A stretch of 44,513 bases of DNA from Cryobacterium sp. (GTDB lineage: Bacteria > Actinomycetota > Actinomycetes > Actinomycetales > Microbacteriaceae): the NCBI GenBank assembly GCA_019638935.1, contig JAHBSW010000018.1, positions 1 to 44,513 of the forward strand, written 5' to 3'. The notes under the pieces are model-generated. The model was not told where the DNA came from. It searched no databases and was given only the letters and a program-made list of their open reading frames with translations. A program made the translations under genes and the position numbers. Of this stretch, positions 27,940-33,239 are shown piece by piece. How positions within the stretch are numbered: the stretch's first letter is position 1; each line of letters starts with the position of its first letter.

Positions 27940-27987
27940 CCACAACATGTAGCGATTCAGCATCCGGAATAACCCGCTATATAGTGA
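27940..27987. promoter_or_regulatory. Pair of NrdR-like boxes
   Basis: Box 1 at 27940-27955 (core CAACATGTAG) and box 2 at 27972-27987 (core CTATATAGTG) resemble the 16-bp NrdR consensus. Their centres are 32 bases apart, the three-turn spacing seen for NrdR repressor sites. Box 2 overlaps a -10-like TATAGT, which suits repression of RNR when dATP/ATP levels signal sufficiency. Confidence 0.65.
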
Positions 27988-28152: not shown

Positions 28153-30624
28153 GTGAGCATCACGGTTGTCAAGCGCAACGGCCAGCGGGAAGCGTACGAC
28201 GCGAACAAGATCAACCTCGCCATCGAGAAGGCGAGCGAGGGACTCGACGAGAACATCACCTGGGTCACCCAGATCGCGAGCGAGCTCGAGCTCACGCTCT
28301 TCGATGGCATCACGACGCAGCAGCTCGACGAGGCCGTCATCCAGGTGGCGCTGCAGAACGTCAAGGACGACCCCGCGTTCGACACTGTCGCCGCTCGCCT
28401 CCTGCTCAAGACGATCTACAAGCGCGTTCTCGGCGATTACGAGACCGACGAGGAGCTCGCACGGCTTCACCTCGAGCACTTCGAGCCCAATCTCCGCCGC
28501 GGCGTCGAGGAGGGTCTGCTCGACACGCGTCTCATCGAGCTCTTCGACATTCCGCGACTCGCCGCTGCCCTCAACCATGAGCGCGACGATCTGCTCAAGT
28601 ACATCGGCGTCGTCACCCTCAACAACCGCTACGGCATCAAGGGGCGCAACGGAGACGCGCTCGAGGTTCCCCAGTACTTCTGGATGCGGGTCGCCATGGG
28701 CCTCAGCCTCAACGAAGACGACCCCACGACGCAGGCTCTGGGGTTCTACGAGAAGATGTCGAAGCTCGAGTACCTTGCCGCGGGCTCGACCCTCGTCAAC
28801 GCGGGCACCAGCTACCCTCAGCTCGCGAACTGCTTCGTCATGGAGATGCAGGACGACATCGAGCACATCGCCAAGACCGTGCGCGACGTCATGTGGCTCA
28901 CGAAGGGCACCGGCGGCATCGGGCTCTCGGTGACGAAGCTGCGCTCCATGGGCTCGCCCATCCGTTCGAACAACACGACCTCGACCGGGCCGATCCCGTT
29001 CATGCACACGATCGACTCGGTGCTGCGCGCGGTGAGCCGCGGCGGCAAGAAGTTCGGCGCGCTCGCGTTCTACATGGAGAACTGGCACCTCGACTTTCCC
29101 GAGTTCCTCGACCTGCGCCAGAACTCGGGCGACCCGTACCGTCGCACTCGCACGGCGAACACCGCGGTCTGGGTGAGCGACGAGTTCATGAAGCGCGTGC
29201 AGAGCGACGCCGACTGGTACCTCTTCGACCCGCTCGAGGTGAGCGAGCTCAACGAGCTCTACGGTGCCGAGTTCTCGGCGCGCTACAACGAGTACGTCGC
29301 GGATGCCGAGGCCGGCAAGCTGCGGATGTTCAAGAAGATCAAGGCACGCGAGCAGTTCAAGGCGATGCTCATGTCGCTGCAGGCGTCGGCGCACCCCTGG
29401 TTGACCTGGAAGGACACCATCAACCTCCGCGCCCTCAACAACAACACGGGCACCATCCACCTGTCGAACCTGTGCACCGAGATCACCCTGCCGCAGGACG
29501 AGGACAACGTCTCGGTCTGCAACCTGGCCTCGATCAACCTGTCCCGTCACATCGTCCCTTCGACAGGCTCAGGACAAGCGAGGTTCACGGTCGACTTCGC
29601 CCGGCTTGAGGAGAGCGCCCGCACGGCGGTGCGTCAGCTCGACAACCTCATCGACATCACCAAGTCGAGTGTGAAGGAGGCGGACTTCTCGAACCAGCAG
29701 AACCGCGCCGTCGGTCTCGGGGTGATGGGCTTCACAGACGCGATCGAGCAGCTCGGCTTCGCCTACGACAGCGAGCAGGCCTATGACTTCATCGACGAGG
29801 TCATGGAGCACATCTCCTACGCCGCGATCGATGAGTCCACCGAGCTCGCCAAGGAGCGCGGCGCCTACCCCAACTTCGAGGGCTCGGGCTGGTCGAACGG
29901 GCTCGTTCCGCTCGACACCATCGACCGCAACGAGGCAGATCGCGGGGTGCCGATCACGGTGTCGCGAAAGTCGACGCTCGACTGGGATTCCATGCGCGAG
30001 AAGGTCAAGAAGGGCATGCGCAACGCGACCCTCATGGCGATCGCGCCCACGGCATCCATCGGCCTTGTCGCCGGCACCACGCCGGGACTCGACCCGCAGT
30101 TCACGCAGATCTTCAGCCGCAACACGTCGTCGGGCAAGTTCCTCGAGGTCAACCGCAACCTCGTCGCCGATCTGCAGAAGCTCGGGATGTGGGAGCAGGT
30201 GCGCGAGTCGATTCTGCGCAGCCAGGGCGACGTGCAGGGCATCGCCGCCCTGCCCGACCACATCAAGGAGGTGTACAAGACGAGCTTCCAGATCTCGCCG
30301 TACGCGTTCCTCGAGGTCGCCGCGCGCGCCCAGAAGTGGATCGACCAGGCCATCAGCCGCAACATGTACCTCGAGTCGCGCGACCTCGGCGACATGATGG
30401 ATGTCTACATCGGCGCCTGGGAGCGCGGGGTCAAGACCACCTATTACCTGCACATGAAGCCGCGCCATCAGGCGGAGCAGTCGACGGTCAAGGTCAACAA
30501 GGCGGAGGAGCTCTCGGATGCCGCGTCGGCTCGCGCGGCGGGCGAGGGCGAGAAGGTGGGGGCCGGCGCTGCGCCCGCTCGTCGCGGTTTCGGCTTCTCC
30601 GGGCTCGCGACGAAGGGGGAGTAG
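28153..30624 (+). CDS. nrdA: Ribonucleoside-diphosphate reductase alpha subunit, lacking its C-terminal redox tail
   Basis: An 823-residue class I RNR catalytic subunit that reduces NDPs to dNDPs with NrdB. It has an N-terminal ATP-cone (about 1-95, VVKRNGQREAYDANKINLAI) for allosteric control. Active-site residues are Cys227 (PQLANC), the thiyl Cys441 with Asn439 and Glu443 (NLCTE), and Cys456 (SVCNLA). The radical-transfer pair is Tyr764-Tyr765 (TYYLH). Residues 468-476 (VPSTGSGQA) come from an inserted dispersed repeat. The protein stops at FSGLATKGE without the CxxC tail that re-reduces the active site; that tail is encoded just downstream in another frame. GTG at 28153 follows AGGAG. No nrdI or nrdH is nearby, so it is not a class Ib operon. 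Confidence 0.95.
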   Translation: MSITVVKRNGQREAYDANKINLAIEKASEGLDENITWVTQIASELELTLFDGITTQQLDEAVIQVALQNVKDDPAFDTVAARLLLKTIYKRVLGDYETDEELARLHLEHFEPNLRRGVEEGLLDTRLIELFDIPRLAAALNHERDDLLKYIGVVTLNNRYGIKGRNGDALEVPQYFWMRVAMGLSLNEDDPTTQALGFYEKMSKLEYLAAGSTLVNAGTSYPQLANCFVMEMQDDIEHIAKTVRDVMWLTKGTGGIGLSVTKLRSMGSPIRSNNTTSTGPIPFMHTIDSVLRAVSRGGKKFGALAFYMENWHLDFPEFLDLRQNSGDPYRRTRTANTAVWVSDEFMKRVQSDADWYLFDPLEVSELNELYGAEFSARYNEYVADAEAGKLRMFKKIKAREQFKAMLMSLQASAHPWLTWKDTINLRALNNNTGTIHLSNLCTEITLPQDEDNVSVCNLASINLSRHIVPSTGSGQARFTVDFARLEESARTAVRQLDNLIDITKSSVKEADFSNQQNRAVGLGVMGFTDAIEQLGFAYDSEQAYDFIDEVMEHISYAAIDESTELAKERGAYPNFEGSGWSNGLVPLDTIDRNEADRGVPITVSRKSTLDWDSMREKVKKGMRNATLMAIAPTASIGLVAGTTPGLDPQFTQIFSRNTSSGKFLEVNRNLVADLQKLGMWEQVRESILRSQGDVQGIAALPDHIKEVYKTSFQISPYAFLEVAARAQKWIDQAISRNMYLESRDLGDMMDVYIGAWERGVKTTYYLHMKPRHQAEQSTVKVNKAEELSDAASARAAGEGEKVGAGAAPARRGFGFSGLATKGE
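29555..29580. repeat. Dispersed repeat inserted in frame within nrdA
   Basis: The stretch containing CCTTCGACAGGCTCAGGACA matches a widespread bacterial extragenic repeat word, CTTCGACAGGCTCAGG, that is usually found between genes. Here it encodes residues 468-476 (VPSTGSGQA), between SINLSRHI and RFTVDFARLEES, where other alpha subunits have a short loop. The frame is preserved. Confidence 0.75.
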
Positions 30625-30628
30625 TCAC

Positions 30629-30706
30629 ATGAATCCGGAGAGCGCGAACGAGTACTACGTTCCGGTCGACCCCATGGACGACCTGCAGTGCGACAGCTGT
30701 CAGTAA
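30629..30706 (+). CDS. Separately encoded C-terminal redox tail of NrdA (25 aa)
   Basis: A 25-residue reading frame, NEYYVPVDPMDDLQCDSCQ preceded by MNPESA. The ending CxxCQ is the swinging-tail dithiol of class I RNR alpha subunits, which passes electrons from thioredoxin or glutaredoxin to the active-site cysteines. It is +1 relative to nrdA, and its ATG lies four bases after the nrdA TAG. GGGGGAG (30615-30621) stands seven bases upstream as a good ribosome-binding site. Removing one G from the run of five (30615-30619) would fuse it to nrdA as ...ATKGSSHMNPES. It may therefore be a real split gene, a +1 frameshift product, a frameshift mutation or a sequence error. Its conservation as tail sequence argues that it is functional. 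Confidence 0.75.
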   Translation: MNPESANEYYVPVDPMDDLQCDSCQ

Positions 30707-30719
30707 TGCGGCGGATGGT

Positions 30720-30816
30720 GGTTTCGAGACGGTCAGCTGACGCCGACCTCCTCAACCACCAAGTAGACGCAGAACTTGTTGGTTGAGGGATCGCCGTAGG
30801 CGATCGTCTCGAAACC
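30720..30816. repeat. Nested inverted-repeat element between alpha and beta RNR genes
   Basis: The outer arms GGTTTCGAGACG (30720-30731) and CGTCTCGAAACC (30805-30816) are perfect complements. An inner pair, CTCAACCACCAAGT / ACTTGTTGGTTGAG, has one mismatch. The whole can fold into a long two-part hairpin. It resembles the extragenic repeats of Microbacteriaceae, lies inside the presumed operon and ends 25 bases before the nrdB start. It may attenuate or stabilise the transcript. Confidence 0.75.
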
Positions 30817-30841
30817 AACCGACCAGAAAGAAGGATCAGCG

Positions 30842-31843: not shown

Positions 31844-31854
31844 GCGATCCCGCT

Positions 31855-31887
31855 GGTCGAGTGGCCGCGCAGCGGCGTATCGAGACC
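31855..31887. repeat. REP-like element, possible terminator after nrdB
   Basis: GGTCGAGTGGCCGCGCAGCG followed by GCGTATCGAGACC, a single copy of the family seen three times at 1791-1905. The core CCGC-GCA-GCGG forms a hairpin and the ends GGTC/GACC also pair. It fills the space between the convergent nrdB and glycosyltransferase genes. Confidence 0.7.
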
Positions 31888-31889
31888 GG

Positions 31890-33239
31890 CTACCTCGAAA
31901 GCAGTTCTCCGAGCAGCGTCACCCAGCGCTCCATGACCGCGGCGGGCCCGAGGCGGTCGCCGGTGGCGTGCGCACCCGCGGCGAGGCGCGCGCGGAGTTC
32001 GACGTTTTCGAGAACCTGGCCGATCGCATCCGTCAGCGCCTCGACATCGCCGGGGGGAACGAGCAGTCCGTTGACGCCGTGCTCGATCATGTCGCGCGGG
32101 CCGTAGTTGATGTCGTAGCTCACGACCGGGGTTCCCTGCATGAGAGCCTCGAGAATGGCGAGTGGCTGACCCTCGTAGGTGCTCGTGAGTGCGGATACCG
32201 CGGCGCGACCGACGCGTACGGCGGGATCGGGAACGTGGCCGAGGAGCGTCACGGCGTCCGCAACATCGAGCTCGGCGATGAGCGCCTCGAGCTCGCCGCG
32301 CGTCGGCCCATCGCCGTACACCTCGAGGCGCACCGGCGTTCCTCGCGAGCGAAGGGCGGCAACCGCCCGGATGACGTGGTCGACCCGCTTGAGCGGTACG
32401 AGCCGCGTGATCATCGCCACGAGCTGCGGATCGCGCACCGGGTCGTCGGTCGGGGTTGCCTCGAGCGCGTGCGGAACCACCTCGAGCCGCGTCTGCTCCC
32501 CGAACCGGCGGGCAACGTCATCGCGCTGCCCCGTGGTCGGAAAGACGACGGCGTCGTAGCGGTCGAGGTGCTCGAGCCAGCCGCCCCAGAGATCGTCGAC
32601 GGGGGAGTCCCAGTGGTGCGGCGGCATGGTGTGGGCGCTGTGCACCGTGTGCACGAGGCGAACACGATCGGAGCGCAGTGGCCACAGCAGTTCGCCGACC
32701 TGGCGCGACTCGGCGATGATCACGGTCGGTTTCGACGCGGTTTCGGGGCTTGCGTCGAGTCCGGCCAAGACGTGGCTCACCCAGGCCCGGTACAGCGCTC
32801 CGAAACCCTCGAAACCGCCCACCACCCGACCCTCACGAAAGGCGAGCACCGGCTCGCCGGCTCGATGCCAATCGGGGCGGGGAATCCTCGGCGTGCGAAG
32901 CACGGGGTTGCCCGCGGCATCCTCGTGATCGTCATACTCGGCCGTCGTCTCGGTGAGGTGCGGGTCGGCCGCGGACCACAGCCACTCGGGGTCGCTGATC
33001 GCCTCTTCGAAGAGGTTGCGGATGACGGTCGAGTCGTCGGCGAGGCCGAGCTCGCGAAAGCCTGCGCGATGCTCCTCATAGCTGGGCGTGAGGTCGACGG
33101 TGAGCAGGAGTGGCCTTGCGCCACCGACCGCGGCGAACTGCTGCGCTCGTCGCAGCACCGAGACGGTGTAGCCGCCGTCCCGCCCCGGGTGCAGGCGGCT
33201 CGTCGCGAAGAGGTAGTGGGCGTCGGGGAGGCGGGTCAT
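31890..33239 (-). CDS. GT4-family glycosyltransferase (TagE-like)
   Basis: A 449-residue GT-B-fold transferase resembling poly(glycerol-phosphate) alpha-glucosyltransferases. The N-terminal half is of the acceptor-binding type (HYLFATSRLHPGRDGGYTVS ... TVHSAHTMPPHHWDSP). The C-terminal half has the donor site: MITRLVPLKRVDHVIRA, VYGDGPTRGELEALI, and the EX7E-type motif STYEGQPLAILEALMQGTPV (Glu pair). It probably glycosylates wall teichoic acid or another envelope polymer; the acceptor is uncertain. The ATG at 33239 overlaps the stop of the upstream MBL-fold gene by four bases (ATGA), so the two are translationally coupled. Confidence 0.85.
   Translation of the reverse strand: MTRLPDAHYLFATSRLHPGRDGGYTVSVLRRAQQFAAVGGARPLLLTVDLTPSYEEHRAGFRELGLADDSTVIRNLFEEAISDPEWLWSAADPHLTETTAEYDDHEDAAGNPVLRTPRIPRPDWHRAGEPVLAFREGRVVGGFEGFGALYRAWVSHVLAGLDASPETASKPTVIIAESRQVGELLWPLRSDRVRLVHTVHSAHTMPPHHWDSPVDDLWGGWLEHLDRYDAVVFPTTGQRDDVARRFGEQTRLEVVPHALEATPTDDPVRDPQLVAMITRLVPLKRVDHVIRAVAALRSRGTPVRLEVYGDGPTRGELEALIAELDVADAVTLLGHVPDPAVRVGRAAVSALTSTYEGQPLAILEALMQGTPVVSYDINYGPRDMIEHGVNGLLVPPGDVEALTDAIGQVLENVELRARLAAGAHATGDRLGPAAVMERWVTLLGELLSR

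Follow-up and report, generated by a model that had tools for sequence, protein, structure and literature searches.

Does the redox-active tail of a class I ribonucleotide reductase (RNR) have to belong to the same polypeptide as the active site that it serves? Class I RNRs are described as carrying a conserved C-terminal pair of cysteines on a flexible tail, which is believed to re-reduce the active site and is itself believed to be reduced by thioredoxin or glutaredoxin (PMC5704485), and the enzyme is regarded as including this tethered, swinging tail as one of its integral parts. The C-terminal cysteines of class I RNR are reported to be reduced specifically by TCEP, whereas DTT can act on the active site directly (PMC5704485). 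The question is raised by a 44,513-nucleotide contig of Cryobacterium sp. (JAHBSW010000018.1), referred to here as the window, which is contig C10 of a 75-contig, 2.41-Mb assembly that is 94.86% complete. In the window, nrdA, the gene of the RNR alpha subunit, ends at a TAG without the C-terminal dithiol, and a separate open reading frame (ORF) of 25 codons that encodes such a dithiol stands just behind it. An earlier note on this DNA had favoured a genuine two-piece alpha subunit over frameshifting, a length-variable run of G or a sequencing or assembly error; with 152 nrdA ends of the family reaching a stop and none of them fused to a tail, the genomes compared here support that preference. 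They point, with high probability, to a class I RNR with a re-reducing tail that acts in trans in the form of a micropeptide.

The architecture of the locus, coordinates included, is as the earlier note had described it. The nrdA frame runs from a GTG at 28153 to the TAG at 30622–30624, and its product ends in ...APARRGFGFSGLATKGE; four bases past this stop, in the +1 frame, an ATG at 30629 opens the 25-codon tail ORF, which closes at a TAA (30704–30706) and encodes the peptide MNPESANEYYVPVDPMDDLQCDSCQ. The Shine–Dalgarno-like GGGGGAG (30615–30621), which includes a run of five G (30615–30619), lies 7 nt upstream of the tail ATG. The features expected of a class I alpha subunit were found in the domains, the active-site cysteines and the presence of nrdB in the operon, and the one that is missing from the NrdA chain, a C-terminal CxxC, is encoded by the separate gene. 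A Pfam scan places PF02867, PF00317 and PF03477 (together the ATP-cone, all-alpha and barrel domains) on NrdA, and the best NCBIfam fit, NF005101 (score 1575.4), is matched over profile positions 1–785 of 822; TIGR02506 (695.7) likewise scores above its cut-off, while the class II model TIGR02504 reaches 392.4 against a cut-off of 399.95. The NrdA segments NCFVMEM, NLCTEI and VCNLASINL align with SCYLTTV, NLCTEI and VCNLGSINL of the solved NrdA 5im3, and we take the aligned cysteines to be the redox pair and the radical cysteine.

Comparison of nrdA 3′ ends across the Microbacteriaceae shows that the split recurs. Among 398 sampled genomes of the family, 176 match this NrdA at E ≤ 1e-50, and putting aside six weak matches (E about 1e-51 to 1e-54) leaves 170 NrdA-positive genomes. 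The 3′ ends of nrdA were examined in 153 family genomes, 150 by script, with its 11 misses read by eye, and three (G041, G008 and G034) read apart as loci without the nrdA search motif, all three of which have an adjacent tail. The stop is reached in 152 of these ends, the remaining contig ending inside nrdA (G254), and neither a fused tail nor a C-terminal CxxC was found in any of the 152. A separate tail gene follows nrdA in 146 of the 153, complete in 145 (142 scripted and the three read apart) and truncated at the edge of the contig in G363. The G183 contig breaks off just past the nrdA stop, and five genomes (G053, G123, G138, G276 and G308) have no adjacent tail in the stretch read; all five hold the tail motif elsewhere, and it was read in four of them. 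After the strict scan, 11 of 150 ends showed no adjacent tail; reading by eye recovered variants such as HCEGCQ (G067) and QCEACQ (G220), and in G009 a tail stands beside an nrdA frame that runs on. The outcome that the earlier note would have counted against its own reading, relatives with one continuous frame and this strain alone different, is the opposite of what was found.

The adjacent tail has the marks of a gene. Among the 142 nrdA-linked copies, the three codon positions of a 15-codon core show mean differences between pairs of 0.103, 0.074 and 0.381, in that order, and residues that the scan had left free are nearly invariant (M and the final Q in 142 of 142, the first V in 141), with Y (139) or F (3) two residues before that V. 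A wider scan, requiring only CxSC near a stop, gave 139 matches, all with the same core. Both cysteines are present in 145 of 145 complete adjacent tails, a count in which the scan required them and the ends that it missed were read by eye, none being cysteine-less. The consensus is Y-x-V-P-x-D-P-M-[DE]-x-L-Q-C-[DE]-S-C-Q, and the length is mostly 21–41 amino acids by assigned starts. Judged by this codon pattern, the tail ORF is more than a chance frame and is under coding selection. With starts assigned by preferring ATG and then a Shine–Dalgarno match (one of 142 copies had no start in range), 94 of 141 overlap the nrdA stop, as ATGA in 36 and as TGATG in 58, and the start codons are ATG in 118 and GTG in 23. 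Overlap of stop and start is the usual mark of translational coupling, for which the tail beside nrdA appears mostly to be placed.

Outside the family, the same tail is found fused to NrdA. A member of another family in a phylum sample of 296 genomes (G611) has an NrdA that is 69% identical and bears the fused tail ...SACPIDPQERLQCESCQ; in seven further genomes of that sample the NrdA stands at 43–46%, the six that were read (L079 was left out) ending in fused CESCQ or CEACQ. In a class sample of 394 genomes, the tail motif occurs in 16 genomes outside the family, with one match each; of the 14 loci read, 13 are fused in frame to NrdA, with homologous tails such as ACPVDPQERLQCESCQ, and in the remaining one (L504) the tail lies on a short frame that has a linker of this kind and lacks the nrdA search motif. 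The pattern used at the order level disallowed a leucine codon after PMD and was blind to stand-alone PMDLLQC copies, which makes its single match in 198 genomes uninformative on that point. On a tree of 47 rows (30 split and 17 fused, built on the last 316–480 residues before the tail), split and fused forms are separated by one change with 100/100 support and in 100% of 200 bootstrap trees, although, by the tree tool's own warning, one change on a tree is not proof of one origin; a first tree had been weak (72/37), with one close fused relative on a long branch, and adding fused relatives resolved it. Because all flanking lineages are fused, the plain reading of the tree would be a single fission, kept thereafter, in the ancestor of those Microbacteriaceae in which this NrdA is found. 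Where the split form has Y/F, V and M, the nearest two families have ACP[VI]DPQER or the like in their fused tails, and the segment of the split form may be a docking segment that replaced the tether. The [RK]GF[GA] motif near the NrdA C-terminus, kept in 150 of 150 scripted split proteins, also occurs in fused relatives and is not specific to the split.

The tail is not confined to the neighbourhood of nrdA. A 24-base pattern covering the last seven tail codons and the stop was found in 176 of the 398 family genomes, its reversed control matching in two genomes, once each. The motif is present in 170 of 170 NrdA-positive genomes and occurs without NrdA in only six; 222 genomes, the six weak NrdA matches included, have neither. 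All seven other genomes of the genus have the motif, each with a copy of the stand-alone type as in MENDTDTVGGYAVPVDPMDLLQCDSCQ (the peptides were read for six of the seven), and in one of the genus members, G311, no nrdA was found. In G138, a single-contig assembly, and G276, which lack a tail beside nrdA, the stand-alone copy is the sole motif in the genome; G123 and G053, of another genus, have a single, remote motif each, MDYE.NDTVGGYAVPVDPMDLLQCDSCQ, and G308 likewise has a single tail motif. The window's own genome has four copies: the nrdA-adjacent one, C24:1007 (MENESETIGGYAVPVDPMDLLQCDSCQ, with a box pair of the kind described below), C19:22182 (MNEEIDGYEVPVDPLELLQCDSCQ) and C19:20410, which stands at the end of a longer frame. 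A search with PF02867 found a single RNR large subunit in the window's genome and in G236, and a second, full-length match in four other genomes of the genus. With no other RNR large subunit detected in the window's genome or in G236, the tail-less NrdA must serve there, barring assembly gaps.

The two C19 copies (L124 and L125) are 1.8 kb apart, one of them beside an integrase, and probably belong to a mobile element with two tail genes. In some loci the tail forms the C-terminal end of a different small protein, as in ...MWLDAHAHGDEPGDQHYQPAPELYLVPIDPMEDLQCDSCQ, as though grafted on a carrier (L131, L133, L515 and L522, with L337, L342, L377 and L397 similar); one such copy is on a Leifsonia plasmid. 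A genome database scan found at least 118 stretches with the tail. The 80 matches listed are mostly from Microbacteriaceae (such as Leifsonia, Cryobacterium, Salinibacterium, Microcella, Naasia, Schumannella and Aurantimicrobium), and among them are some metagenome-assembled genomes with broader or other labels, including one Acidobacteria and one Cellulomonadaceae.

Many stand-alone copies are preceded by sites that resemble those of the RNR regulator NrdR. We scored 16-mers against a palindromic NrdR box consensus, and the matches are imperfect (10–13 of 16). Of the tandem pair before nrdA in the window, the second box is the only plus-strand position in the window scoring at least 12. The two 16-bp box-like sites are separated by 16 bp, within the spacers of 14–17 bp at which NrdR binding is described (PMC12051234). 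A box pair lies within 280 bp of 59 of 91 distinct bacterial tails that the script had classed as unlinked to nrdA (for one of them, L137, the score comes from a box other than the likely one), the spacer being 17 bp in most, compared with 2.55% of 20,000 random segments from the same loci. The share becomes 59 of 89 once two copies among the pairless (L114 and L121) are recognised as nrdA-linked, and 11 of the 32 pairless copies come from loci picked for extra copies, so that for ordinary stand-alone copies the proportion would, if anything, be higher.

The tail gene also travels on phages and plasmids and is found in prophage-like loci. A search of phage records, run with an E limit of 10 since the query is short, gave matches at E 0.01 to 3 in Clavibacter phages CMP1 and CN1A (two records each), Pontimonas phage phiPsal1 and Pseudanabaena phage Pan2, with tail ends QCDSCQ, ICEGCQ, QCTSCQ and SCESCQ, respectively; in CMP1 and phiPsal1 the tail gene follows the holin gene. 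The Pan2 record (ON968453, L270), from a phage recorded from a cyanobacterium, holds the free peptide MDDFDTIDGFACPNDPADLVSCESCQ, whose ACP.DP part is closer to fused tails; either the host label may be wrong or there may be another lineage of free tails. Scanning IMG/VR with the tail pattern gave at least 120 viral stretches with 120 tails, 103 of them distinct. These differ by 0.129, 0.049 and 0.556 at codon positions 1, 2 and 3 and keep the methionine in 102 of 103, where the pattern took any codon with a middle T. No nrdA-like or nrdB-like motif was found in these 120 stretches (970,360 bases; crude motifs, and stretches rather than whole contigs). A looser motif had marked one of 80 viral loci (L174) as nrdA-like, which a stricter one rejected (0 of 120). 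Ten neighbouring proteins from six loci, compared with PHROGs, include an endolysin or peptidase in L205, L216 and L203, a holin in L182, a tape-measure-like piece in L151 and the integrase beside the C19:22182 copy; the remaining four have no family or one of unknown function.

Nineteen plasmid records matched (E 8e-4 to 0.6), 15 from Clavibacter, three from Leifsonia and one from Gryllotalpicola; all three genera belong to the Microbacteriaceae. The three plasmid tails that were read end in QCESCQ, QCDSCQ and NCDSCQ. Such a gene is easily overlooked: the annotation has no feature at the tail in three of the four named phages and a 27-amino-acid hypothetical protein in Pan2, and a 33-amino-acid free tail on a plasmid of Leifsonia sp. 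ZF2019 (L521) is recorded as 'ribonucleotide-diphosphate reductase subunit beta', apparently a misannotation.

The economical account of these observations is action in trans, in which the free dithiol peptide would do the work that a tethered tail does in cis; the alignment of the NrdA active-site cysteines with those of a solved enzyme is in its favour. The free peptide, once translated, probably binds the tail-less NrdA through its aromatic residue and the VPxDPM segment, its CxxC dithiol would reach the active-site disulfide of NrdA, and a thioredoxin- or NrdH-type protein would re-reduce the peptide. The tail of the yeast R1 subunit reportedly can act on a neighbouring subunit. With a second copy placed after tandem NrdR-box-like sites, peptide and enzyme would rise together, and the phage and plasmid copies probably keep the host RNR turning over. 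We lean, with less assurance than for action in trans itself, towards the wider proposition that a dithiol peptide of about 25 residues is a diffusible, interchangeable class I RNR subunit, which NrdR doses along with the enzyme from a remote locus, and that the peptide by itself serves phages and plasmids as a one-peptide metabolic hijack, sustaining turnover of the host RNR although they bring no RNR with them.

Several observations weigh against this account. At the threshold used, 32 of the 91 copies classed as unlinked have no box pair, and none of the 103 distinct viral tails has one, so that the phage copies might be decoys rather than helpers. The Pan2 peptide ACPNDPADLVSCESCQ is without the V and M of the other tails, and no Pfam or NCBIfam model matched the tail peptide of the window. 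The codon scan preset P, D, P, C and C, which fixed some of the conserved residues, both cysteines included, beforehand. The six genomes with the motif and no NrdA match are 77, 83, 84, 89, 93 and 94% complete, and the co-occurrence counts are not independent of phylogeny, their Fisher value not being a chance probability.

The rival that survives best, which we regard as improbable, is that the peptide is tied to RNR yet is not its reductant: it would be a redox-sensitive regulator or inhibitor, a redoxin would reduce NrdA directly, and the mobile copies would be regulators or decoys. The phage copies, which are not near RNR genes on the stretches read, accord with such a role, and the Y/F, V and M, which are not found in the fused tails of the nearest two families, would suit a dedicated binding peptide. 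Against it, the homology of the core to those fused tails extends to the terminal LQC[DE]SCQ, the cysteines are kept without exception in the complete adjacent tails, and the peptide is retained in the window's genome and in G236, where no second RNR large subunit was detected.

Far less probable is that programmed frameshifting or stop readthrough fuses the tail to NrdA and leaves the enzyme continuous. In most genomes the tail does start only a few bases away from where nrdA stops, and the G5 run stands at the junction in the window. Against a continuous enzyme, the tail has start codons of its own and lies in frames 2, 0 and 1 relative to nrdA in 120, 14 and 8 of the 142 scripted copies, the 14 being in frame beyond a stop. 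Since the frames differ between species, a conserved frameshift or readthrough is excluded, and the earlier note's suggestion of a +1 shift or a length-variable G5 run falls with it. The five ends without an adjacent tail and the stand-alone copies on other contigs, plasmids and phages tell against fusion as well; the three frames and the remote copies together refute it as a general mechanism.

The probability that we would give to the two last alternatives is close to nil. A single-base sequencing or assembly error, which the earlier note had also considered, would be conceivable in a 75-contig assembly with a homopolymer at the junction; it is refuted by the relatives, as the same split is seen in 152 other ends examined, or in their readable part, with none fused, many of these genomes being single-contig assemblies, and a split common to relatives excludes an error in this contig. 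Joining of the parts after transcription or translation, by trans-splicing or protein ligation, would restore the ancestral protein, and nothing else was found in its favour; the Pfam scan of NrdA shows no intein-like domain, and the remote and phage copies would need the same joining.

The closest precedent for a free tail is NrdJa/NrdJb, where the C-terminal redox module is likewise encoded separately: nrdJb is described as a gene of its own for the cysteine-rich module, apart from the class II catalytic subunit NrdJa (PMC5704485). In that account the NrdJb module is 150–220 amino acids long, belongs to class II and, as far as detected, does not resemble the class I C-terminus (PMC5704485), whereas here a short linear dithiol peptide would serve a class I enzyme, exists in several copies and is found on phages and plasmids; in the window the class II model scores below its cut-off, nrdB is present and the separate piece has only 25 amino acids. 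Among split phage RNR genes, the nrdA of Aeromonas phage Aeh1 is described as lying in two genes, nrdA-a and nrdA-b, and as still functional, an inserted homing endonuclease splitting the gene of one phage (PMC3653736); the present case differs in concerning a bacterial family, in that the redox tail alone is split off and in the tails that also occur elsewhere. The NrdB–glutaredoxin fusion described in Facklamia ignava (PMC6187632) is a similarly unusual genetic layout of an RNR reductant and is the opposite of a tail fission from NrdA, the reductant being fused onto NrdB. Phages are described as carrying ribonucleotide-reduction genes as auxiliary metabolic genes (PMC3653736), whereas the phages here have the redox tail only, with no RNR subunit seen on the stretches read. 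Compared with the canonical class I tail, the free peptide lacks the covalent tether, and its terminal motif is the one seen in fused tails of the neighbouring families.

Searches of the open-licence literature showed no earlier report of a class I RNR whose tail is a free micropeptide. While NrdJb and Aeh1 are known, we have not found in print a class I tail that is free across a family, has a second locus with NrdR-box-like sites and occurs alone on phages and plasmids. If the proposal is true, the re-reduction step would be open to study by simple peptide titration, a catalytic tail can turn into an independent, mobile gene, and phages would have a strategy based on a single tiny gene, to which surveys of complete RNR genes are blind.

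Table 1. Position, strand and supporting evidence of the features of the nrdA locus in the window.
Feature	Position	Strand	Evidence
NrdR-box-like 16-mer, first of the tandem pair before nrdA (CCACAACATGTAGCGA)	27940..27955	+	10/16 consensus matches
NrdR-box-like 16-mer, second of the pair (ACCCGCTATATAGTGA)	27972..27987	+	12/16 consensus matches
nrdA, class I RNR alpha subunit, 823 aa, without C-terminal dithiol	28153..30624	+	ORF, Pfam, NCBIfam
RRGFGF motif near the NrdA C-terminus, candidate docking site	30580..30597	+	motif kept in split NrdA
GGGGGAG, Shine–Dalgarno-like, within the nrdA end	30615..30621	+	sequence
Free-standing redox-tail gene, 25 aa, core VPVDPMDDLQCDSCQ	30629..30706	+	ORF; kept in relatives
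Palindrome separating the tail gene from nrdB; belongs to a repeat family found across the genome	30719..30817	.	contig matches, fold
nrdB, RNR beta subunit, 333 aa	30842..31843	+	PF00268, NF007186

Repeated sequences also mark this locus. The palindrome between the tail gene and nrdB (30716–30817) recurs at many other places of the genome, on several other contigs and on both strands, and the intergenic segment 30707–30841 folds into a hairpin of −65 kcal/mol (z −6.31). Within nrdA, an in-frame insert at 29559–29574 with TTCGACAGGCTCAGGA (around PSTGSGQAR), where two aligned solved NrdA relatives have a gap, looks like a repeat inserted in the gene, this being its sole match within the window. 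A second, short repeat family lies 3′ of nrdB at 31849–31891 and has matches at many other places in the genome.

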